Part shown: in pieces, positions 11,183 to 63,701 of the stretch
How positions within the stretch are numbered: the first letter of the stretch is position 1
How the letters are laid out: every line of letters starts with the position of its first letter
NCBI GenBank assembly: GCA_027596075.1
Contig: JADGJC010000028.1
Span: 157,123-221,122, forward strand
Length of the DNA stretch: 64,000 nt
Direction: 5' to 3'
DNA from: Rhizophlyctis rosea
Taxonomy: Eukaryota; Chytridiomycota; Chytridiomycetes; Rhizophlyctidales; Rhizophlyctidaceae
Notes under the pieces: generated by a model
What the model was told of the DNA's origin: nothing
The model's input: only the letters and a program-made list of their open reading frames with translations
Databases searched by the model: none
Program-made: the position numbers and the translations under genes

Positions 11183-12156
11183 TGGGTATTGGGCAAATGG
11201 CAGAGTGTAAAGGGGAAAAGGAAAGTGTTCAAGAATGTGGAGGAATTAGGTCTGGCACGTCAACACTGCGCCACTCCGACGCACTCCTTCTGCGACAAGT
11301 TACGGTACGCACTTCTTGAAGTTCAAGGATTGCACGATTTCAAACATATACACACACGAACTACCGCACAACAGTACAAACGGATGTATTCCCACCGACT
11401 GGACTTGAACCAGTATCTCCCACCCAAAGGTGGCGCTCGACATTGAGCTACGGCAGAAGTAGTTGTTTTTGGAGCTGGAAAGATATCCAACAACCGTTGA
11501 ATACCCCCAACAGACGCAAACCCCCAAACCTGAGGTGAATGCGCTCCCTAAGGGACTGCTCCGAACCCACACAACATCACCAGCAGAGACTACTAAAAGC
11601 GCGAACGCCTCGCCCAGAGTTCGCCCAAGCACCCCCTCACCCTTACCTAAAGTGAGGCCCGTGGCGCCTGGGCAGTAACTCGGTCAAGTTCGCAAGAAAG
11701 AAGCCAGAAGGAAAAGGAACAGCCATCCTGCTACGACCTAGGCGTCCATACACTCTGCACCCTGTTGCCCTCTCCGAAGATTAGGCACGCCACGACACCA
11801 TGCATAGCCACACCAATGCGCCTGATACATGGATAGGGGTGGAGAGCTCTGGTCTCTAACAATATTGTTATCTGTCCTAGGGTGGCTTCCCGGCTCGATG
11901 AAACGGCCAGGGACGTCGGGATGAAGAAAGAGATTGAAAAGTTGGGAGATGAAGAGTGGTAAAAGAGAAAATGAGAGTGAGAAAATTTCGACTTCGATTC
12001 TGATGACCTGCAGTGAAGATCGACGTCACGCGCCAGCCAAGCCACAAGGGGTCTGAATGACTCACTCTGACCGTACACGCGGGTTCAAGGTCCGCTCTGA
12101 CAGACGGTCAACCCATCTTCCGAAATTTCCTCTATTATGACTGTTCACCTTCTCCC
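11183..12156. other. Intergenic with a tRNA-like element
   Basis: About 970 nt between MPDU1 (minus) and the SUMO-like gene (plus). Apart from the minus-strand tRNA-like element at 11390-11457 I see only short unsupported open frames. Confidence 0.5.
11390..11457 (-). tRNA. tRNA-like element, shortened (possible tRNA-Pro pseudogene)
   Basis: Read on the minus strand, a 68-nt cloverleaf can be drawn. The T arm is perfect (ACTGG, loop TTCAAGT, CCAGT) and contains a full B box GGTTCAAGTCC. The D arm is GCTC/GAGC with a short loop lacking the usual GG, and the A box is TAGCTCAATG. The 7-bp acceptor stem TCTGCCG/CGGTGGG has three G-U pairs. The anticodon region CCACCTTTGGGTGG is too short for a normal 5+7+5 arm. 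A Pro-type TTTGGGT loop would read TGG, but its 3' stem side is largely missing. It could be a decayed tRNA, a tRNA-derived SINE head, or an organelle-derived copy. I would not assume it is functional. Confidence 0.5.
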
Positions 12157-16723: not shown

Positions 16724-16989
16724 ACATGGCCTTTGTCAGTACTATTAACCCATGGACGGTTGTGCGTGGTCTTGACTGATATAGAACAGGATGGAGGCCA
16801 TCATTGTGACCTCAACATGGCCCAATAAAGATACATTTACAATATGTACATGGCAAGACTGACTACCTGCCTCCGCAAACCCTTTGGGGCACCTTGCGGA
16901 GCTTGAAATTTGTAATCACAAACCCTATTTGCATTCACCGCCAATTCCCGAAAACTCAACAAACCGATCTATCCAAAAGCCGCATCATA

Positions 16990-17337
16990 TCACCGAGTGC
17001 CTTCCTGTCCACCTGTCTGGCCCTCCCAGCTGAACAAGCTGGTGAACCAGACGATGGCGTAGAGCAGCAGACCAAACTTCAACACTGTCCATGCCGTCCT
17101 GACCGCTCCCCTCAGCATTCCCACCAACGCTCCGATGACGAAGTAGGTAACGACGCACGCGATGAGTGTTGCGACGATTGGGTGGACGTCGAGACGGGGG
17201 ATGAGACGCAGGAGTTTTGTAATTCCGTTTGGGAGGTGGGTGTAGAGGAGGGAGGTGATGCGGGTTGTCAGGTTGTAAACTTGTGCAACGGATTGGAAGA
17301 GGGCGTCTGTGGATGAGGTGGTGGTGTCTGCGGGCAT
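16990..17337 (-). CDS. Small two-span membrane protein (Apq12-like?)
   Basis: One exon of 115 codons starting at MPADTTTSS. The frame stays open further upstream but is rich in low-probability residues and lacks better starts. The second half has two hydrophobic spans, VATLIACVVTYFVIGALVGM and TAWTVLKFGLLLYAIVWFTS, separated by a short basic turn (LRGAVR), with a short polar tail. This size and arrangement recalls fungal Apq12-type proteins, which sit in the nuclear envelope/ER and affect nuclear pore assembly, but the resemblance is structural rather than motif based. Function should be regarded as unknown. Confidence 0.5.
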   Translation of the reverse strand: MPADTTTSSTDALFQSVAQVYNLTTRITSLLYTHLPNGITKLLRLIPRLDVHPIVATLIACVVTYFVIGALVGMLRGAVRTAWTVLKFGLLLYAIVWFTSLFSWEGQTGGQEGTR

Positions 17338-17764
17338 TGTTTGTGTCAGGGGTGAGTTGCTGGTAGAGTGAGTTTCGGTGTTCTCGTACGTTCTGCTCAG
17401 AGTTGTTTTGTGAGTTGAATCGAGATGGCGAGTATTCGCATGACAGCTGTGTGGAACCAGGAAAAGGGGTTTGCCAACCAACTTGTCCGAAACGCGCAGC
17501 AAGTGTGGCGTGGATGGTGGGTGGCAAAGCATTTGCAGATTCACAGCTGAGCAGGGTGCCAAGCCAGGGTCCTTGTGGGAAAGTGGGGTCAATGAAACAC
17601 GTCCGTCCGTCCATCAGTCCACGAAACATTTCATTTCAACAGATCACCAAATACCATGCCTGATGATGCAATGACGCTAATCAATCAATCAAGACATTCC
17701 ATAATCAACACGATTATGTGCCACGAGACCAAACTCCATGAGCAGTCTCCAAAACCCGAAAAAG

Positions 17765-17772
17765 TATATAAG
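17765..17772 (+). promoter_or_regulatory. TATA box upstream of the hairpin array
   Basis: TATATAAG on the plus strand, 82 nt before the first hairpin unit. It is the best TATA-like site in the interval 17338-18869, where no protein gene is visible. It suggests plus-strand Pol II transcription through the array. Confidence 0.5.
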
Positions 17773-17853
17773 ATCCCCCACCCCCACCACGGTTTCCTCT
17801 CACTCCAAAACGCACAACTTTCCCACGCCCCTCACATCCTGAGACCTCACGCC

Positions 17854-17940
17854 GTTTACAGTCGCAGGCTATCCTCGCCATATTCATCCATCCATTGTCA
17901 TACAGTGCCATGATTCTGGCCGGCAGTCTGACCTGTAAAC
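17854..17940 (+). ncRNA. Hairpin unit 1
   Basis: 87 nt. The outer stem GTTTACAG/CTGTAAAC is 8 bp. The inner arm CAGGC pairs with GTCTG using one G-U pair. The interior is the least paired of the five (GCCA/TGGC and CATTG/CAGTG). Confidence 0.45.
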
Positions 17941-17996
17941 TCGCGTTTCCGTCTCATACCGTTCTTTCCCACGATACTTTTCATCTTCATTGCGCC

Positions 17997-18084
17997 GTTT
18001 ACAGTCCCAGGCATCCCCGCTTTCCACTCACTTAGTGACTTGATAGTCTCACAAGTGGAAAACCCGAGGCCGGACCCTGTGAAC
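17997..18084 (+). ncRNA. Hairpin unit 2
   Basis: 88 nt. The outer stem GTTTACAG pairs with CTGTGAAC through one G-U wobble; the CAGGC/GCCGG stem has one mismatch. A long private inner stem TTTCCACT/AGTGGAAA and GACT/AGTC cap it. Confidence 0.45.
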
Positions 18085-18168
18085 AGTGCTTTCTTCTTTT
18101 CTTTTTTTGTATTTTCATCTCCAAGATGTGGCCCAAGTTTTTCCCATCCGCATTTTATATCGCCCACC

Positions 18169-18252
18169 GTTTACAGTAGCAGGCATTCCCCTCGTTGCGC
18201 TCATCCATTCTTTGGTTGATTGCCAACGTGTAGAGGCCTGACTCTTGTAAAC
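18169..18252 (+). ncRNA. Hairpin unit 3
   Basis: 84 nt. Outer stem GTTTACA/TGTAAAC is missing only its innermost pair context (CTTGTAAAC). CAGGC/GCCTG is perfect. Inner stems are CCTC/GAGG and CGTTG/CAACG. Confidence 0.45.
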
Positions 18253-18304
18253 TGTGTTCATTTTTCCATTCACTTCTCCTTTCAAACCAAGCTCTTTCCC
18301 CACC

Positions 18305-18388
18305 GTTTACAGTCGCAGGCATTCCCCGCTGTCCCTTCCAGTGATGTATGATCACCGATGGGAACCGCTGAGGCCTCGCCTTGTAAAC
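18305..18388 (+). ncRNA. Hairpin unit 4
   Basis: 84 nt. Outer stem GTTTACA/TGTAAAC. The AGGC/GCCT stem is one pair shorter. Inner stems are TCCC/GGGA and GTGAT/ATCAC. Confidence 0.45.
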
Positions 18389-18419
18389 TGTGATTCTTTT
18401 CTTTTCTTGTGCTTTTGCC

Positions 18420-18511
18420 GTTTACAGTAGCAGGCATTCTTCATTCTCCGATCCTCTTTTGATGCATATATCATCACGGATAAGGAAATGCTGAGGCCTG
18501 ACATTGTAAAC
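18420..18511 (+). ncRNA. Hairpin unit 5
   Basis: 92 nt. Outer stem GTTTACA/TGTAAAC and CAGGC/GCCTG are perfect. Nested inner stems are TCC/GGA, ATCC/GGAT and TGATG/CATCA. Confidence 0.45.
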
Positions 18512-18869
18512 AGCAATTCGCTTTTGATTCTCTTTACATCCTGACATGGGTGCGATATATATCATTCCAAATTAATGTTGTGAAAGCTTCTAGCAGAACT
18601 TTACGCCCCACCCTGTAATCACAGGTGAACAAGGCTGGGCATCTATGAGGGTCAGAATGGTATGATAACGTCCGTGTTCGTTACACGACAATATCCAAAA
18701 GTTGAACACACAGATCTTGTTTGGAAAAGAAACTTGCCATGGACCTCCTCTATATACAATAACTTGTGCAACACCAATGACCAAAAAACCATACAACCAC
18801 CCAACCTACATCATGGTACCTAACAACATCCATACACATCCCAATGTACACACAACCAACAAACAACCC

Positions 18870-21621
18870 TCAACGTCCACCACCCCCCACCCTCGCCGCC
18901 CTCTTCCTCTCCCAAACCCCCCTAACAACCCTCCTAACATTCTCAACCTCCTGATGGAAATTCAACCTCGCACTCTCCGCCAACCCTTTACTTTCCCAAT
19001 CCTTCCACTCCAACTTCGAAAAGCCCACATCGCTCGGCCCGAACAACATCTGCTCGCTCACCGTTCCGTTTCGCAAATTCGGCATATATATGAGCTCCAT
19101 CTCCCTGCGGAGGTTCGGTTCACCGTGTGTGCCTTCGCCTCTGGGATCCACGGGCTCGGCGTGGAAGGTTTGGCAATATCTGTCGGAGAAGAATTCGCGG
19201 ATGTGGGAGGAGGGCCACTGCCGTGTCGGGAGTTCTTCGGGTTTTTGTTCTTGGGGTTGGGGTGGTGGGGCGTTGGATAGTTGGGCAATGGTATTGCTGG
19301 CGGCACCCATGGTGGTGTCACTGGGGTTGGGAGAAGGCTTTTCGTGGGTAGCGCCAGGGAATTGAGGGTTGACCGCCGCGTCGGGCGGTGGACGTCGACC
19401 GGTCGCAGGTTCCGGAGATGTGCGGGTCAGCTTGACGTTGAGGCGTTTGGAAAAGGCAGCAAAGTCCGGAGGGATGCTATAAACCGGAAATGCTCAGTAA
19501 GACATACTTCCAACTTACAATTATGAAATCATCAACTTACACATCGCGCTCCACATCGGTACTTGAATCCAACACAAAGACAATATCCACATCCCGTCCT
19601 TCTCTTGTGAAGGCATAGAAGGGCTGGTTGTTATCAACACCTGCAGATTGCCATGGTGATAACAAGTGAGTACACGGAAAGGCAAGCGGGTGTAGTACGA
19701 TGGTTGAATCGTCACTCTTACCCGCATCAATCCACTGAATGCGCTTCGAATTCCATATTCCAGGCTTCTTGACCTCCTGCCCCTTGACAGGGTCATAAAG
19801 CGGATTCCAGTTGAACGATGAGTGAATGAAATGTCTAGCCATGATGTTTTTGATGAAGTCCGATGCGTTTGGTGCCATTAGCTATATTGTGTTGATTACT
19901 ATGTTTGTATGACGGAGGGGCATACTTCACACTTGGCACTGACCATGTTCGTGAGTGATTTTACGCTGTCTGTCAGGGTACTCTTAGCACCTCCTTGCAA
20001 TGTGTTCACAGTGGCAAGAGCTTTGGAGAACGGCAAACACATAGCGCTTGCCGTCAATCTGTTACCGACCAACTCGCATCAGACACCATTGAAATATGCT
20101 CCAGCAATTCAAACGAGATCGAAAAATACCCAAAAATAGTCGAAAAGTTAATCTCAGGCACCTTATCAATACTATTCCCACTAACAAATCGCCTCCCAAA
20201 CGACCAAGTAGGGAACCAAACCCTCAACTCCTCACTCCCAATCTGAAATGGCGAGAATTCAAACCACTGCCACCAGGCTTCCTCATTCTCCACTTCCGCC
20301 ATCTTCTCATCCATTTCCGTTTCCTCGTTTGCCTGATCAAACTCATCCTGGATCTGCTCCAGCTTCTTGCCAGTCTTCTTCTCGTATTCCTCCAAAGACA
20401 TCTTTGCAGTCTCCTCATCAAATTCGCGATCCTTCCAGGGCCTTGCGTGCCGGACGGCGGTGTAGATTGGAAGAGGATGCTGACCGCCGGCAAAGTAACG
20501 GGGTATCTGGGCGGTGAATTTGAAGTCCTCCGGGCGAAACTCGCGGTCATGGGGATGGTGGAAGAAGTGGGCAGCAAGGATGGCGCCGTACAGGTCTACG
20601 ATGCCTCGTGGGAGGCCGCAAAAGTACTTTTGCATGAGTCCGCCAAAGATGAGATAGATGCGGGTAGGGTCTTGGGAGATGATTTCGTCGACGTGGTTCA
20701 GGTCAAAGGGGTGCTTGCGGCATACTTGGACGAAATGGTTTACTAAGGCAGTTGGGGACCCTTCTGCTGCTGTGTATAGGTTTCCGAGGGTCCAACACGC
20801 TCCACTGACACCTGGTTTGATCAATTGTGTTAACACATCTCAATCCTGTGCTAATGTGAGGGCAATATTCTGTTGACTTACCAGATATGTACATCATGCA
20901 GTCCCAGAAACCGAGCTCCTCCATCGCCTGGAAGAACCCAGCAGTTGCGATCATGGCCTTGAACCCACCACCACTGCCCCCAGCTCCAATAATAGGAATG
21001 TCACGGACATCAACCTCCTCCATTGACACCCCAATAAACTTTGCAAAGGATGCGCGCATCGATTCCAGCCGTTCCATTTTGAACTTTTGCTCCTCGGCCG
21101 TGATCATATTTTCCCGGCTGTGATATAATAATTCTTATGGTTGAATATGGAGTACGTGGAACTCTTTTTGTCAAGAAAGGTTACCTGATTGCTGCATCAC
21201 GAAGAATTTCTGGATTTTTCTTGTTATCTTTCATGTCAGCTTCGACTACATCATCCAGCTTTGTGAAGTGCTCGATGTGTTCAATAGTCGAACCTTTCAC
21301 CGACTGTTTGACTAAGGCTTTGACGCCCTTGTACCCGCTTTTCGCATGTTGGTACAGGGAACCCAAAAAGTTCGAGTCTTTAGACTCGGAGTCCTTAGAT
21401 TTTGGCTGCTGGGAAGCACTGGAAATGCCTGGCCCAAGAGGTGACGGGTCAACAGGGAAGGCGAGGCGCTCTGGACGCGCATCTCTGGGGAGGGGCACGT
21501 GAGGATCTTGCATCGTGGTTGGGATTGGTGGAGGTGGAGGTGTCTCTCTATCGAGAGAAAGAGAGGCCAAAATGTTGCGAAGCGTATCCTCGCGAGATGC
21601 TTGCTGCCTTGAACCCATCAT
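18870..21621 (-). CDS. Cytosolic phospholipase A2/lysophospholipase-like l​ipase
   Basis: Multi-exon gene on the minus strand. Exon joins are firm at both ends, but one or two introns between about 19,880 and 20,080 are not resolved. The N-terminus is Pro-rich and disordered. The catalytic fold starts at RDIPIIGAGGSGGGFKAM (oxyanion region), followed across an intron by YISG-VSGACWTLGNLY, which holds the nucleophile Ser of the G-x-S-G motif. The partner Asp is in QWIDAG-VDNNQPFYAF, before RDVDIVFVLDSSTD, as in PLA2 group IV. The Arg of the family motif GSGGGFR is Lys here. Expected role: hydrolysis of fatty acyl esters of phospholipids or lysophospholipids. No signal peptide or C2 domain is seen, so it is probably intracellular, unlike secreted yeast PLB. 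Confidence 0.82.
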
Positions 21622-37690: not shown

Positions 37691-40600
37691 TCATGCCGCT
37701 CCAACGAGCCCCACAGCACCAACAGCACCATCACCTCCCCCAACACCATCCCCCTCTCCATCCCCATCTCCACCCCCCCTCCTCCTAAACAACTCCTCCT
37801 CCACCGACCCCCTAACAACAAACCTCGCAATCCTCACCCGCCTCCTCTGCCCGATCCTCACACACCTGGCAACACCCTGCATCTCCGCGCCCACCGCATG
37901 CTCCTCCACCTCATCCCAAAACGGATGCAATATTACCACATGACTCGCCTCCGTCAAATTCAGTCCACTAACCGAATCCGTTGCGGAAAGAATGATGACC
38001 TTGACCGGATCCGCCGCATCGCCGAGTAATCCCGCCCGGAACCGCGCAAGAGCTTTTTCGCGAATGTTCCAACCGCCGTAGAGGCGGACGTTCGAGACTT
38101 TGAAGCTGTTGAGGGCGTCACTGACGAGGGAGGCTAGGTCGGCCCATTGGATGAAGACTACGATGCGGTGGGTGGGGTCTTGGGCGAGGACGCGGTTGAT
38201 GTAGGTGACGAGGTAGCGGAGTTTGGAGCCGAAGGTCGTTGTGTCGACGCCTTCCAGTTCGGGGTCTGGTATGTTGGATGGTCCTGCTTCCGGTTCTTTT
38301 CCTTTCAAGGATGTTTCTGCGTGCCGACTGGGCGCTTCGAGGTGCATGGCTTGTCCGATTGTGAAGGGTCGTCGGCAGTTGGGGCATGTGCCGGATTTGT
38401 CGAAGTTGTTGCAGAGGCGGATGGCGCAGTCGGGACAGGTGCAGTGGCCGCAGGGGAGGATTGCTAGGTTCTGGTCTTTCATGTCGTCTTCCAAACACAC
38501 AGGGCACGAAAGCTCAGCTTTCTCGAGGTAGGTGGTCGTGAAATTCGCAAAGAAAGTGTACTGAGATTTGATGGGATTCAACTCAGCGAGAAGCTCATGC
38601 TTCCTCCCATTCAGCTTTGCCAAATACTTCGTCGCCTGATCCACCCGTTTCTTCAGCCTCGCATCCTTTAAACCCAACTGATCACTCTCATTCTTCTCCT
38701 TCTGCACCGCCTCAAGCTCCCTCGCCGCCTCGTCTATGAACGGCTGATGCTTCTCCAACTTTTCTTCCAAATCCGCAATCCGAACCACCCTCTGCCCCTG
38801 AATCACCTCCACCACCTGTTCAATGCTCAACGCCCCATGATGCAAGTTCCCTTCCTTCCCCATGTCCCCCTGCACAAGGTCCGCAATCTGGTGGTGCGAA
38901 CAGAACATCAACAAATCCCTCATGTTCGCCTCCCTAACGTCGCGCATCTGGCGGTACACCACCGATTCCGGCACCGATGGCTGAACCCAGATAGTTTCGT
39001 TGATCGGGTCTGGGTATTCCGGATCTGGCTCGTTCCTCCTGACCCTATTAATCACGAACCGCCTACTCTCAATCGCATTATGCACCCACTCCTCCGGATC
39101 CAACTTCAAAATCTCCGCAAAGAACTCCACCCTACTCGTATCCTGCAACCTCGGCGTCCCCGTCAAACCCCAAATATGATCCGCACTCATCATCCGTATC
39201 TGGTCCCGAATCCCCGCCATCTTGTCCGAAATCTCATGGAACTCATCGAAGATAATACGGTGGAAGTGGACCCACGTAAGAGCGAAGGAACCCTTTTTGT
39301 GAGCCACGAAGCGACGGACTTCAGAGGGATTTTCCCAGTCCCAATGTGTGTTGAAGTTGCCCAACCAGCGCGAGGCGGTTTTTGAGCCTTTGTAGCAGCT
39401 GTTGGTGAGCATCGAGTAGGACATGATGATGATGTCGGCGGTGAGGATGTCCAAGAAGTCGACTTCTACATACGAAGCTTTCCCCTTCAGGCAGATGATT
39501 TTGAGCTTGTGGTCGGCACCAAAGCATTTGAGGATCTCCGTCTCCCATTGCTGGCATAGGTTATTAGGAACGAAAATGACAGAAGCTTTTGAGATGAAGC
39601 GTTCGTAGTCGAATTGGTAAAGGTATTCCGATTCAGGAGTGGTGAAAGGTCGGTCGTGGATCAACGCAAGAGTCGTGATCGTTTTGCCGACGCCAGGTTT
39701 GTCGGCGATAACGCCTCCCCGCACATTTGTCTCCAACAACCCGCTATCCAGACCCTCGTGTAATGTTTCCTTCCCCAAATGCACAAACGTTTCCCCGACC
39801 TTCGCGACACTTGGACTATAAAACCGATCAGCATTTCCAGCCTCGACGTCCTTCATCCATCCCAGGGAGCGAAGTTGATAGTCGTAAAGGTTCAATTTGA
39901 ATCCGTTGTCGGGCTGTGTTGAAGGGTCACATTCGTGGGTAGCGGGGATGGCACATAAGGACATATCCTCTTGATTCACAGGTGCGTCCTCCACACCGGG
40001 AATGACGTATTCACTGGTGTGGCTTTGGAGCGGCTCCGCGCGGTCGGGAAGCAGGTAATGGAATTTACGTGCTGGTACGTGTAAATGGAGATTGGGAGGG
40101 GCGGTATGGCGCGCGTAGATTTCCAAACGTGCGGTAAGGAGGTTGCGATTGTTCTTTGGCCCTTCCAACGCAAGGATGTATCTTACGGTGCTGTGGTCTG
40201 TGTTTTCGAGGTTTCGCGGAAATACTTCCGGGAAAAGCATATGCAATGGCGCAGCAAGGGTGTTGTCTGATACGTAACGAAAAACGTAGTCCTTCTCGAG
40301 CGGTGGGTAGATTTCTTGATTTTTTCGATAGACATTGGCATTCAGCGTCCAATAAGTGTCGTAGTTGTAATACCAGTGCGATCGAGACGGCGGGCGGGGA
40401 GCGGTATCAGGGAGTGGAAGACGGATATCCGCGTGACGATAGCTGTTGTAAACTTGGACTGTTTCCAATGCGAAAGTGATCTCTTCTCTCCTGCCGGACA
40501 CTTGGCAAACATTGTGCGACAGACTGACATAGGTCTTGTCGTCAATGGATTCTGTGATACGTTGCGAGTAGACTGCTATCGGAGTTTCTCCAAAAAGATC

Positions 40601-40839
40601 TGGAACATCTGAATACAATCATTTATCATTCATCATTATTATCGAAATAGCTGCTAACTCTTACACCTCACACAACTCCTACCTTCGGCCAGGGACGGTC
40701 CAGCTGAGGGTTCATCTACTCGCACAGAAGCTCCTGAGGGGCCACCACAGTCTTCTTCTTCACCAAGTCTTGGGGCCTTTGATGGTCTTTCGAGGTCCTC
40801 GTGTTCCCCTTCGAACTTGCGGGTTTTTGCCGTAGCCAT
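37691..40839 (-). CDS. SNF2-family ATPase with inserted RING finger (Rad5/Rad16-like)
   Basis: Two exons, 40665..40839 and 37691..40608, give 1030 residues. Start is MATAKTRK with an acidic/basic leader. SNF2 N-lobe: LYDYQLRSLGWM, Walker A IADKPGVGKTIT, FVPNNLCQQWETEI, IIMSYSMLTN, Walker B FDEFHEI and WGLTGTP. A coiled-coil-rich insert follows (LEEKLEKHQPFIDEAARELE), then a C3HC4 RING: CPVCLEDD, LPCGHCTCPDCA, CPNCRRPF. The C-lobe has VVFIQWADL, ILSATDSVSGLNLTEA and EMQGVARCVRIGQ. The RING between lobes is the Rad5/Rad16/HLTF/SHPRH plan, combining DNA translocase and E3 ligase. Motif II is DEFH instead of DEAH or DEGH. The C-terminus ends in a Gly/Asp/Val-rich tail. A HIRAN domain is not recognised, so direct Rad5 orthology is unproven. 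Confidence 0.85.
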
Positions 40840-63609: not shown

Positions 63610-63701
63610 ATCTCCCGGCGGGATTCGAACCAGCACCTACCGATTCTTTCCCACCGTTCAGAGGGAAAGGAAACAGTGCTCTACCATTTAGCTACGGGAA
63701 G
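63610..63701 (-). tRNA. tRNA-like element with internal hairpin
   Basis: On the minus strand a tRNA-like fold of 92 nt. It has a perfect A box (TAGCTAAATGG) and B box (GGTTCGAATCC). The D arm GCTA/GAGC has a normal AATGGTA loop. The acceptor stem CTTCCCG/CGGGAGA fails only at the first pair. The T stem GCTGG/CCCGC has one mismatch. The middle is unusual: CTGTT/ATCGG would be a poor anticodon stem, and inside it sits a strong 7-bp hairpin CTTTCCC/GGGAAAG with loop TCTGAACGGT. It could be a class-II length tRNA, a tRNA with an intron, or a tRNA-derived element. No TTTT terminator follows closely. Isotype not assigned. Confidence 0.5.

Follow-up and report, generated by a model that had tools for sequence, protein, structure and literature searches.

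Fungi have few conserved families of hairpin RNA; in animals, polycistronic microRNA (miRNA) clusters carry several hairpins per transcript. The closest fungal systems described are the loci of miRNAs and miRNA-like RNAs (milRNAs), for which the text of a review reports that no mature sequence is common to the libraries of different species and that 25 loci are conserved in several species; the words "chytrid" and "cluster" do not occur in the main text of that review (PMC9757828). A second point of comparison is provided by the Class I RNAs of dictyostelid amoebae, which, as set out in the text of PMC7919456, combine a terminal stem, a conserved motif beside the 5' part of that stem and a free interior, and make up an RNA class of their own. 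In the chytrid Rhizophlyctis rosea (Chytridiomycota, Rhizophlyctidales), we analysed a 64,000-nucleotide (nt) stretch of contig JADGJC010000028.1 (positions 157,123 to 221,122; hereafter the window), within which five direct repeats with complementary ends, GTTTAC..AAAC, follow one another in tandem on the plus strand (17854-18511). Together with their copies elsewhere in the genome, these repeats very probably represent a small, conserved family of functional structured non-coding RNA (ncRNA) laid out in two promoter-led arrays. That the arrays form a miRNA-like cluster is the best reading we can offer of that family, and we put it forward tentatively.

Each of the five units (U1 to U5; Table 1) forms a single long hairpin that is more stable than all 200 of its dinucleotide shuffles, with folding z of -3.98, -2.93, -6.03, -3.84 and -5.37 for units 1 to 5, respectively (n = 200). 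When the whole 769-nt stretch was folded at once, the GTTTACAG arm of every unit paired with the 3' arm of that same unit (mean P 0.99, 0.99, 0.98, 0.85 and 1.00), despite arm sequences that are nearly interchangeable. These results bear out the original prediction, made from the letters of the stretch, of five hairpins of 84-92 nt, of inner stems that are indeed present in our folds, and of a TATA box, TATATAAG, 82 nt upstream on the same strand. It had also held that no protein frame crosses the array, and no open reading frame (ORF) of at least 100 amino acids (aa) overlaps 17630-18701 on either strand. A protein-coding reading was rejected because the longest plus-strand ATG ORFs reach only 41 aa here and 46 and 39 aa at the two further loci of the family, on contigs C621 and C534. 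Folding alone is unremarkable, since equally paired hairpins are common in this genome (about 69 places with at least 34 pairs in 240 kb of strand, a figure that counts the family units); the remarkable part is the repeated, conserved arms.

Searches of the R. rosea assembly (44.1 Mb, 634 contigs) place nine family copies at three loci: five in the window, three on C621 (V1 to V3, within 72.4-73.1 kb and all on the minus strand of that contig, a locus recovered by a DNA search with window positions 17700-18600), and one decayed copy, W1, on C534 (within 254.7-255.2 kb). The exact pattern GTTTACAGTNSCAGGC occurs nine times, in these same five, three and one places; allowing one mismatch adds five places, all off-family, and the control gives 9. 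The 21-nt 5' arm with up to three mismatches is found at 22 places in the 44.1 Mb, against 27 for the reversed control. Eight of the nine copies match exactly and the ninth, U1, has one mismatch; the other 13 places have three, and no site beyond the nine copies has two or fewer. The 3'-arm pattern GCCTGACN{0,3}TGTAAAC matches five times, at four sites within the arrays and at one on contig C34 where no such hairpin forms. With the C621 array or the C534 unit as query, DNA searches returned no new locus at E <= 10. The C534 unit recovered itself alone and missed its known relatives; the DNA searches therefore speak only weakly for absence, and the number of copies is taken from the pattern searches, which copies with a 5' arm altered by more than three bases may escape. 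A full-sensitivity covariance-model search, confined to the three loci, returned the nine units and their reverse strands and otherwise only matches at E > 1. Two patterns each were run against viral and prokaryotic contig collections with 0 matches, which says little about fungi given the make-up of these collections. In whole-transcript folds, all eight array units (U and V) pair with their own arm at a mean P of at least 0.85, and W1 does so at a P of only 0.02 in its whole-stretch fold.

The two arrays also share their promoter layout. The TATA box stands at -87 from the first unit in the window and, as TATAAAA, at -89 in the C621 array, and W1 has TATAAATA at -255; the 64-kb window holds 22 TATAWA motifs on its plus strand and 18 on its minus strand. 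The leaders of the window and C621 arrays are 57% identical (z 3.1, 0 of 200 shuffles as high), and the linker between U1 and U2 is 63% identical to that between V1 and V2 (z 4.0), among 45 pairs of linkers, leaders and tails compared. From these similar leaders and the one similar linker pair, we infer that the two arrays arose by an old duplication that took in the promoter. A six-frame blastp comparison of the array flanks placed nearly all matches over the arrays and showed no shared neighbours, the two matches off the array on the window side being weak (E 8e-4 and 6e-4, 24-26 aa). The earlier proposal of a TATA-led, polycistronic structured-RNA locus on the plus strand is thus strengthened by a second array with a TATA box at almost the same distance, and the TATA boxes common to the arrays, together with an excess of G.U pairs described below, speak for the plus strand as the RNA. 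Just 3' of the last unit lies a palindromic GATATATATC (18554-18563), which could function as a TATA-like element in minus-strand transcription. On the C534 minus strand, a long hairpin unrelated to the family (38 pairs in 99 nt; L019:2527-2627; z -3.83, 1 of 200 shuffles) stands between the TATA box and W1. It is not counted as support, as equally paired stems are not rare, occurring at about 27 places in 240 kb of strand.

The signal that sets the family apart was located by aligning the nine units with MAFFT without the use of structure. In the 5' arm, which reads approximately CGUUUACAGUNSCAGGCANYC over about 21 nt with free columns 15-16 near its middle, 16 positions (columns 4-14 and 17-21) are identical in all nine copies; in the 3' arm, eight columns are (83, 85, 89, 93, 94 and 97-99). 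Over 13 core pairs in nine copies, the 5' side shows 0 changes and the 3' side 10, or about seven events when counted by hand and five without W1, a count given separately because W1 was found through its 5' arm; the contrast of five events with none is suggestive, not decisive. Interiors, leaders and linkers have meanwhile drifted to 57-65% identity at best, so that the constancy of the arm implies selection and not recent copying. In this respect, the original argument for selection over recent duplication holds for the constant arm and drifted interiors, and its appeal to structure does not gain proof from covariation, which changes both sides in 2 of 16 pairs (3 cells; 87 of 500 shuffles as many). 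Within the 16-pair stem, 95.8% of cells are paired and the covariation score is 0.151 against a shuffled mean of 0.120, each reached by 17 of 500 shuffles, and six further pair types occur, a number matched by 372 of 500. The pairing is specific to its register, the paired cells falling to 18-38% (maximum 37.5%) and the score to at most 0.036 when the 3' partners are slid by 1-3 columns. The imperfect cells (8 G.U, 2 A.C and 4 other) are mostly G.U, which is what a plus-strand RNA would be expected to show. The outer stem comes in the versions CGC/GCG, CAC/GUG and UGC/GCA. Arm changes in the first two units had been said to keep pairing through G-U; this is so for unit 1 (one G.U) and for two changes in unit 2, which also has an A.G mismatch in the shared register, and unit 4 has a C.C. 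With an RNAalifold covariation term of -0.34 kcal/mol, covariation is modest, and the dominant signal is the sequence constancy of the 5' arm.

The interiors, first described as private to each unit, prove to be related once the C621 array is added. Of 36 interior pairs, eight reach z of at least 3.9 at 59-65% identity (U4-U5 6.2, U4-V3 5.6, U2-U4 5.3, U1-V2 5.2, U1-V1 4.7, U5-V3 4.7, U2-V3 3.9 and V1-V2 3.9), and by this measure they fall into two diverged subfamilies, A (U1, V1, V2) and B (U2, U4, U5, V3). The U3 interior shows only a weak relationship to the others (highest z 3.3, to V2), and that of W1 almost none (z 2.1, to V1). Subfamily folds keep inner stems, and both sides change in 5 of 34 pairs of A and, with U3 included, in 5 of 25 of B; the covariation term penalises the A fold (+3) and is close to zero for B (-0.08).

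A constant arm, a partner held mainly by pairing, and drifting loops and linkers are the profile of paralogous miRNA precursors. Under the miRNA-like reading, the array would be an ncRNA gene transcribed from its TATA promoter, probably by RNA polymerase II, into a single transcript carrying five hairpins of one family. Dicer would most likely cut each hairpin into a duplex of about 21-22 nt, the constant 5' arm being kept as an Argonaute guide and the 3' arm serving as a looser passenger; the C621 array would yield the same guide from three hairpins, and the C534 copy would be a decayed remnant. Several findings are consistent with this. Both putative mature arms lie in the stem, W1 excepted; the arm is conserved above the loop (16 of 16 listed 5'-arm positions constant, interiors 59-65% identical at best); no Rfam match over the cut-off points to derivation from another known structured RNA at the array; and Dicer-like and Piwi-domain genes are present in the genome. 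Piwi-domain matches number 22 on 11 contigs (C92, C408, C58, C611, C606, C257, C301, C197, C624, C190 and C535), some of them with internal stops, which suggests an expanded Argonaute set with pseudogenes in R. rosea. RNase III matches number 10 on 8 contigs, and on C66 and C6 a Dicer dimerisation domain adjoins two of them. Like polycistronic animal miRNA clusters, the locus would place several hairpins on one presumed transcript; it differs from them in the position of its conserved arms, which sit at the extreme base of the hairpin above about 4 pairs. Evidence of a Drosha-type system in R. rosea was neither sought nor found. With fungal mi/milRNA loci as portrayed in the review text, the array shares intergenic-looking hairpins and a duplex region under selection beside a freer loop, as for milR22, and it departs from them in having several hairpins that share one arm per presumed transcript and in its longer loops (PMC9757828).

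Other observations weigh against a miRNA-like function. Near-complementary sites to the 5' arm are not in excess (13 off-family with three mismatches, none with one or two, control 27), so plant-type targeting is not supported, and GCCTG-N4/5-TGTAAAC gives 10 off-family sites against 9 in the control, several of them resembling intron 3' ends. The minus strand folds more stably than the plus strand in six of nine units, and the eight invariant 3'-arm columns exceed what a passenger strand needs. From the unit lengths, about 44-55 nt lie between the putative duplex arms, where supported fungal loci, according to the text of the review, usually have fewer than 20 (PMC9757828). Under a strict stem rule (internal loops of at most 3 nt, counted from the apical loop), only three of nine units have a stem of at least 33 pairs. 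The long loops and the six units failing this rule tell against a standard fungal milRNA. The miRNA-like locus of the original prediction stands as a candidate, suggested by sequence and folding models.

The main rival is that the units are stem-closed ncRNAs that work in the manner of dictyostelid Class I RNAs, a reading that we regard as unlikely, though the strongest of the alternatives. Columns 89, 93, 94 and 97-99 of the 3' arm are constant, column 5 (C) is constant in nine of nine copies without a pairing partner, and the terminal stem, the constant stretch neighbouring its 5' part and the drifting interior match the Class I plan nearly as well. The size and setting match it less. In D. 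discoideum, as the text of PMC7919456 gives them, these RNAs measure 42-65 nt, have DUSE about 60 nt upstream and carry a motif that is not described there as paired, whereas the R. rosea units, of about 90 nt (83-94 nt from CC to AAC), stand in one row behind one TATA box and have the constant motif paired.

Tandem units with identical stem-loop-stem ends and pyrimidine-rich linkers between them would also suit an untrimmed long ncRNA presenting repeated copies of one protein-binding hairpin, as a sponge or scaffold. No protein partner is known for such a role, and we hold this to be improbable. The linkers, 63-79% pyrimidine, figure as well in a reading that we consider very improbable, a spliced transcript in which the linkers would be introns and the hairpin interiors mini-exons. 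It draws on an acceptor-like CAG|GC in the 5' arm, a donor-like GTAAAC in the 3' arm, and the resemblance by eye of several off-family matches to GTTTACA-N4/5-CAGGC to intron 3' ends, where TTTAC is soon followed by CAG (L015, L016, L052, L053 and L056, each near position 1501). The donors near these off-family sites are, by eye, GTAAGT, GTGAGT and GTATGT; splice donors usually have G at +5, which GTAAAC lacks and which we count against splicing, and W1 has no GT at the donor-like position. Equally remote is a mobile-element remnant, that is, a miniature inverted-repeat transposable element (MITE), or a small nucleolar RNA (snoRNA) cluster, to which the inverted ends, the polycistronic layout and a CUGA in the 3' arm resembling box D by eye would lend themselves: a MITE was rejected on copy number and layout, as the nine copies found lie at three loci, with eight grouped into two single-strand arrays of common promoter layout, and are not dispersed in the large numbers that the original prediction named as its refutation, and snoRNAs, which it had offered as a candidate, were rejected along with other Rfam families because no match near the array exceeds the cut-off (best snoRNA match snoU49, 18.6 bits against a cut-off of 35, E 2.1) and, by eye, no box C (RUGAUGA) adjoins the stem in any of the nine units of the alignment. 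Readings as a kink-turn, a hammerhead or a Y RNA were likewise considered and dropped.

Table 1. Features of the hairpin array in the window (positions counted from the first letter of the window)
Feature	Positions	Strand	Span GTTTAC..AAAC	Remarks
TATA box TATATAAG	17765-17772	+		82 nt 5' of first arm; 87 nt 5' of unit 1 from its CCG
Leader	17773-17851	+		C-rich after TATA box
Hairpin unit 1 (U1), subfamily A	17852-17940	+	17854-17940 (87 nt)	constant 5' arm 17853-17873
Linker 1-2	17941-17994	+		74% pyrimidine
Hairpin unit 2 (U2), subfamily B	17995-18084	+	17997-18084 (88 nt)	constant 5' arm 17996-18016
Linker 2-3	18085-18166	+		82 nt, 72% pyrimidine
Hairpin unit 3 (U3), weakly subfamily B	18167-18252	+	18169-18252 (84 nt)	constant 5' arm 18168-18188
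Linker 3-4	18253-18302	+		50 nt, 76% pyrimidine
Hairpin unit 4 (U4), subfamily B	18303-18388	+	18305-18388 (84 nt)	constant 5' arm 18304-18324
Linker 4-5	18389-18417	+		29 nt, 79% pyrimidine
Hairpin unit 5 (U5), subfamily B	18418-18511	+	18420-18511 (92 nt)	constant 5' arm 18419-18439

The right-hand flanking ORF at 18870-19310 (minus strand) is without a scored homologue, a PDB search of that at 16985-17338 (minus strand) returned nothing, and neither did a Pfam search of three flanking ORFs. Further away, two tRNA matches lie on the minus strand of the window, at 11390-11457 and at 63610-63701, the latter longer than usual and barely above the cut-off (30.4 against 29 bits), and the 975-aa ORF at 37691-40618 (minus strand) is 100% identical throughout to a 1024-aa R. 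rosea protein named DNA helicase rad5.

Among the titles and abstract beginnings of the top-ranked literature results, no work dealing with R. rosea small RNAs or structured RNAs was recognised. It is conceivable, if short of an even chance, that this chytrid harbours either a genuine polycistronic cluster of the miRNA type or a new class of ncRNA resembling Class I. If the miRNA-type reading is true, an early-branching fungus would own a conserved small-RNA family of animal or plant style, and a chytrid cluster with one guide in several hairpins would supply an exact 21-nt sequence for testing a miRNA-like system in early-branching fungi. If the units are instead a stem-closed ncRNA class, they would by themselves amount to a new RNA family.
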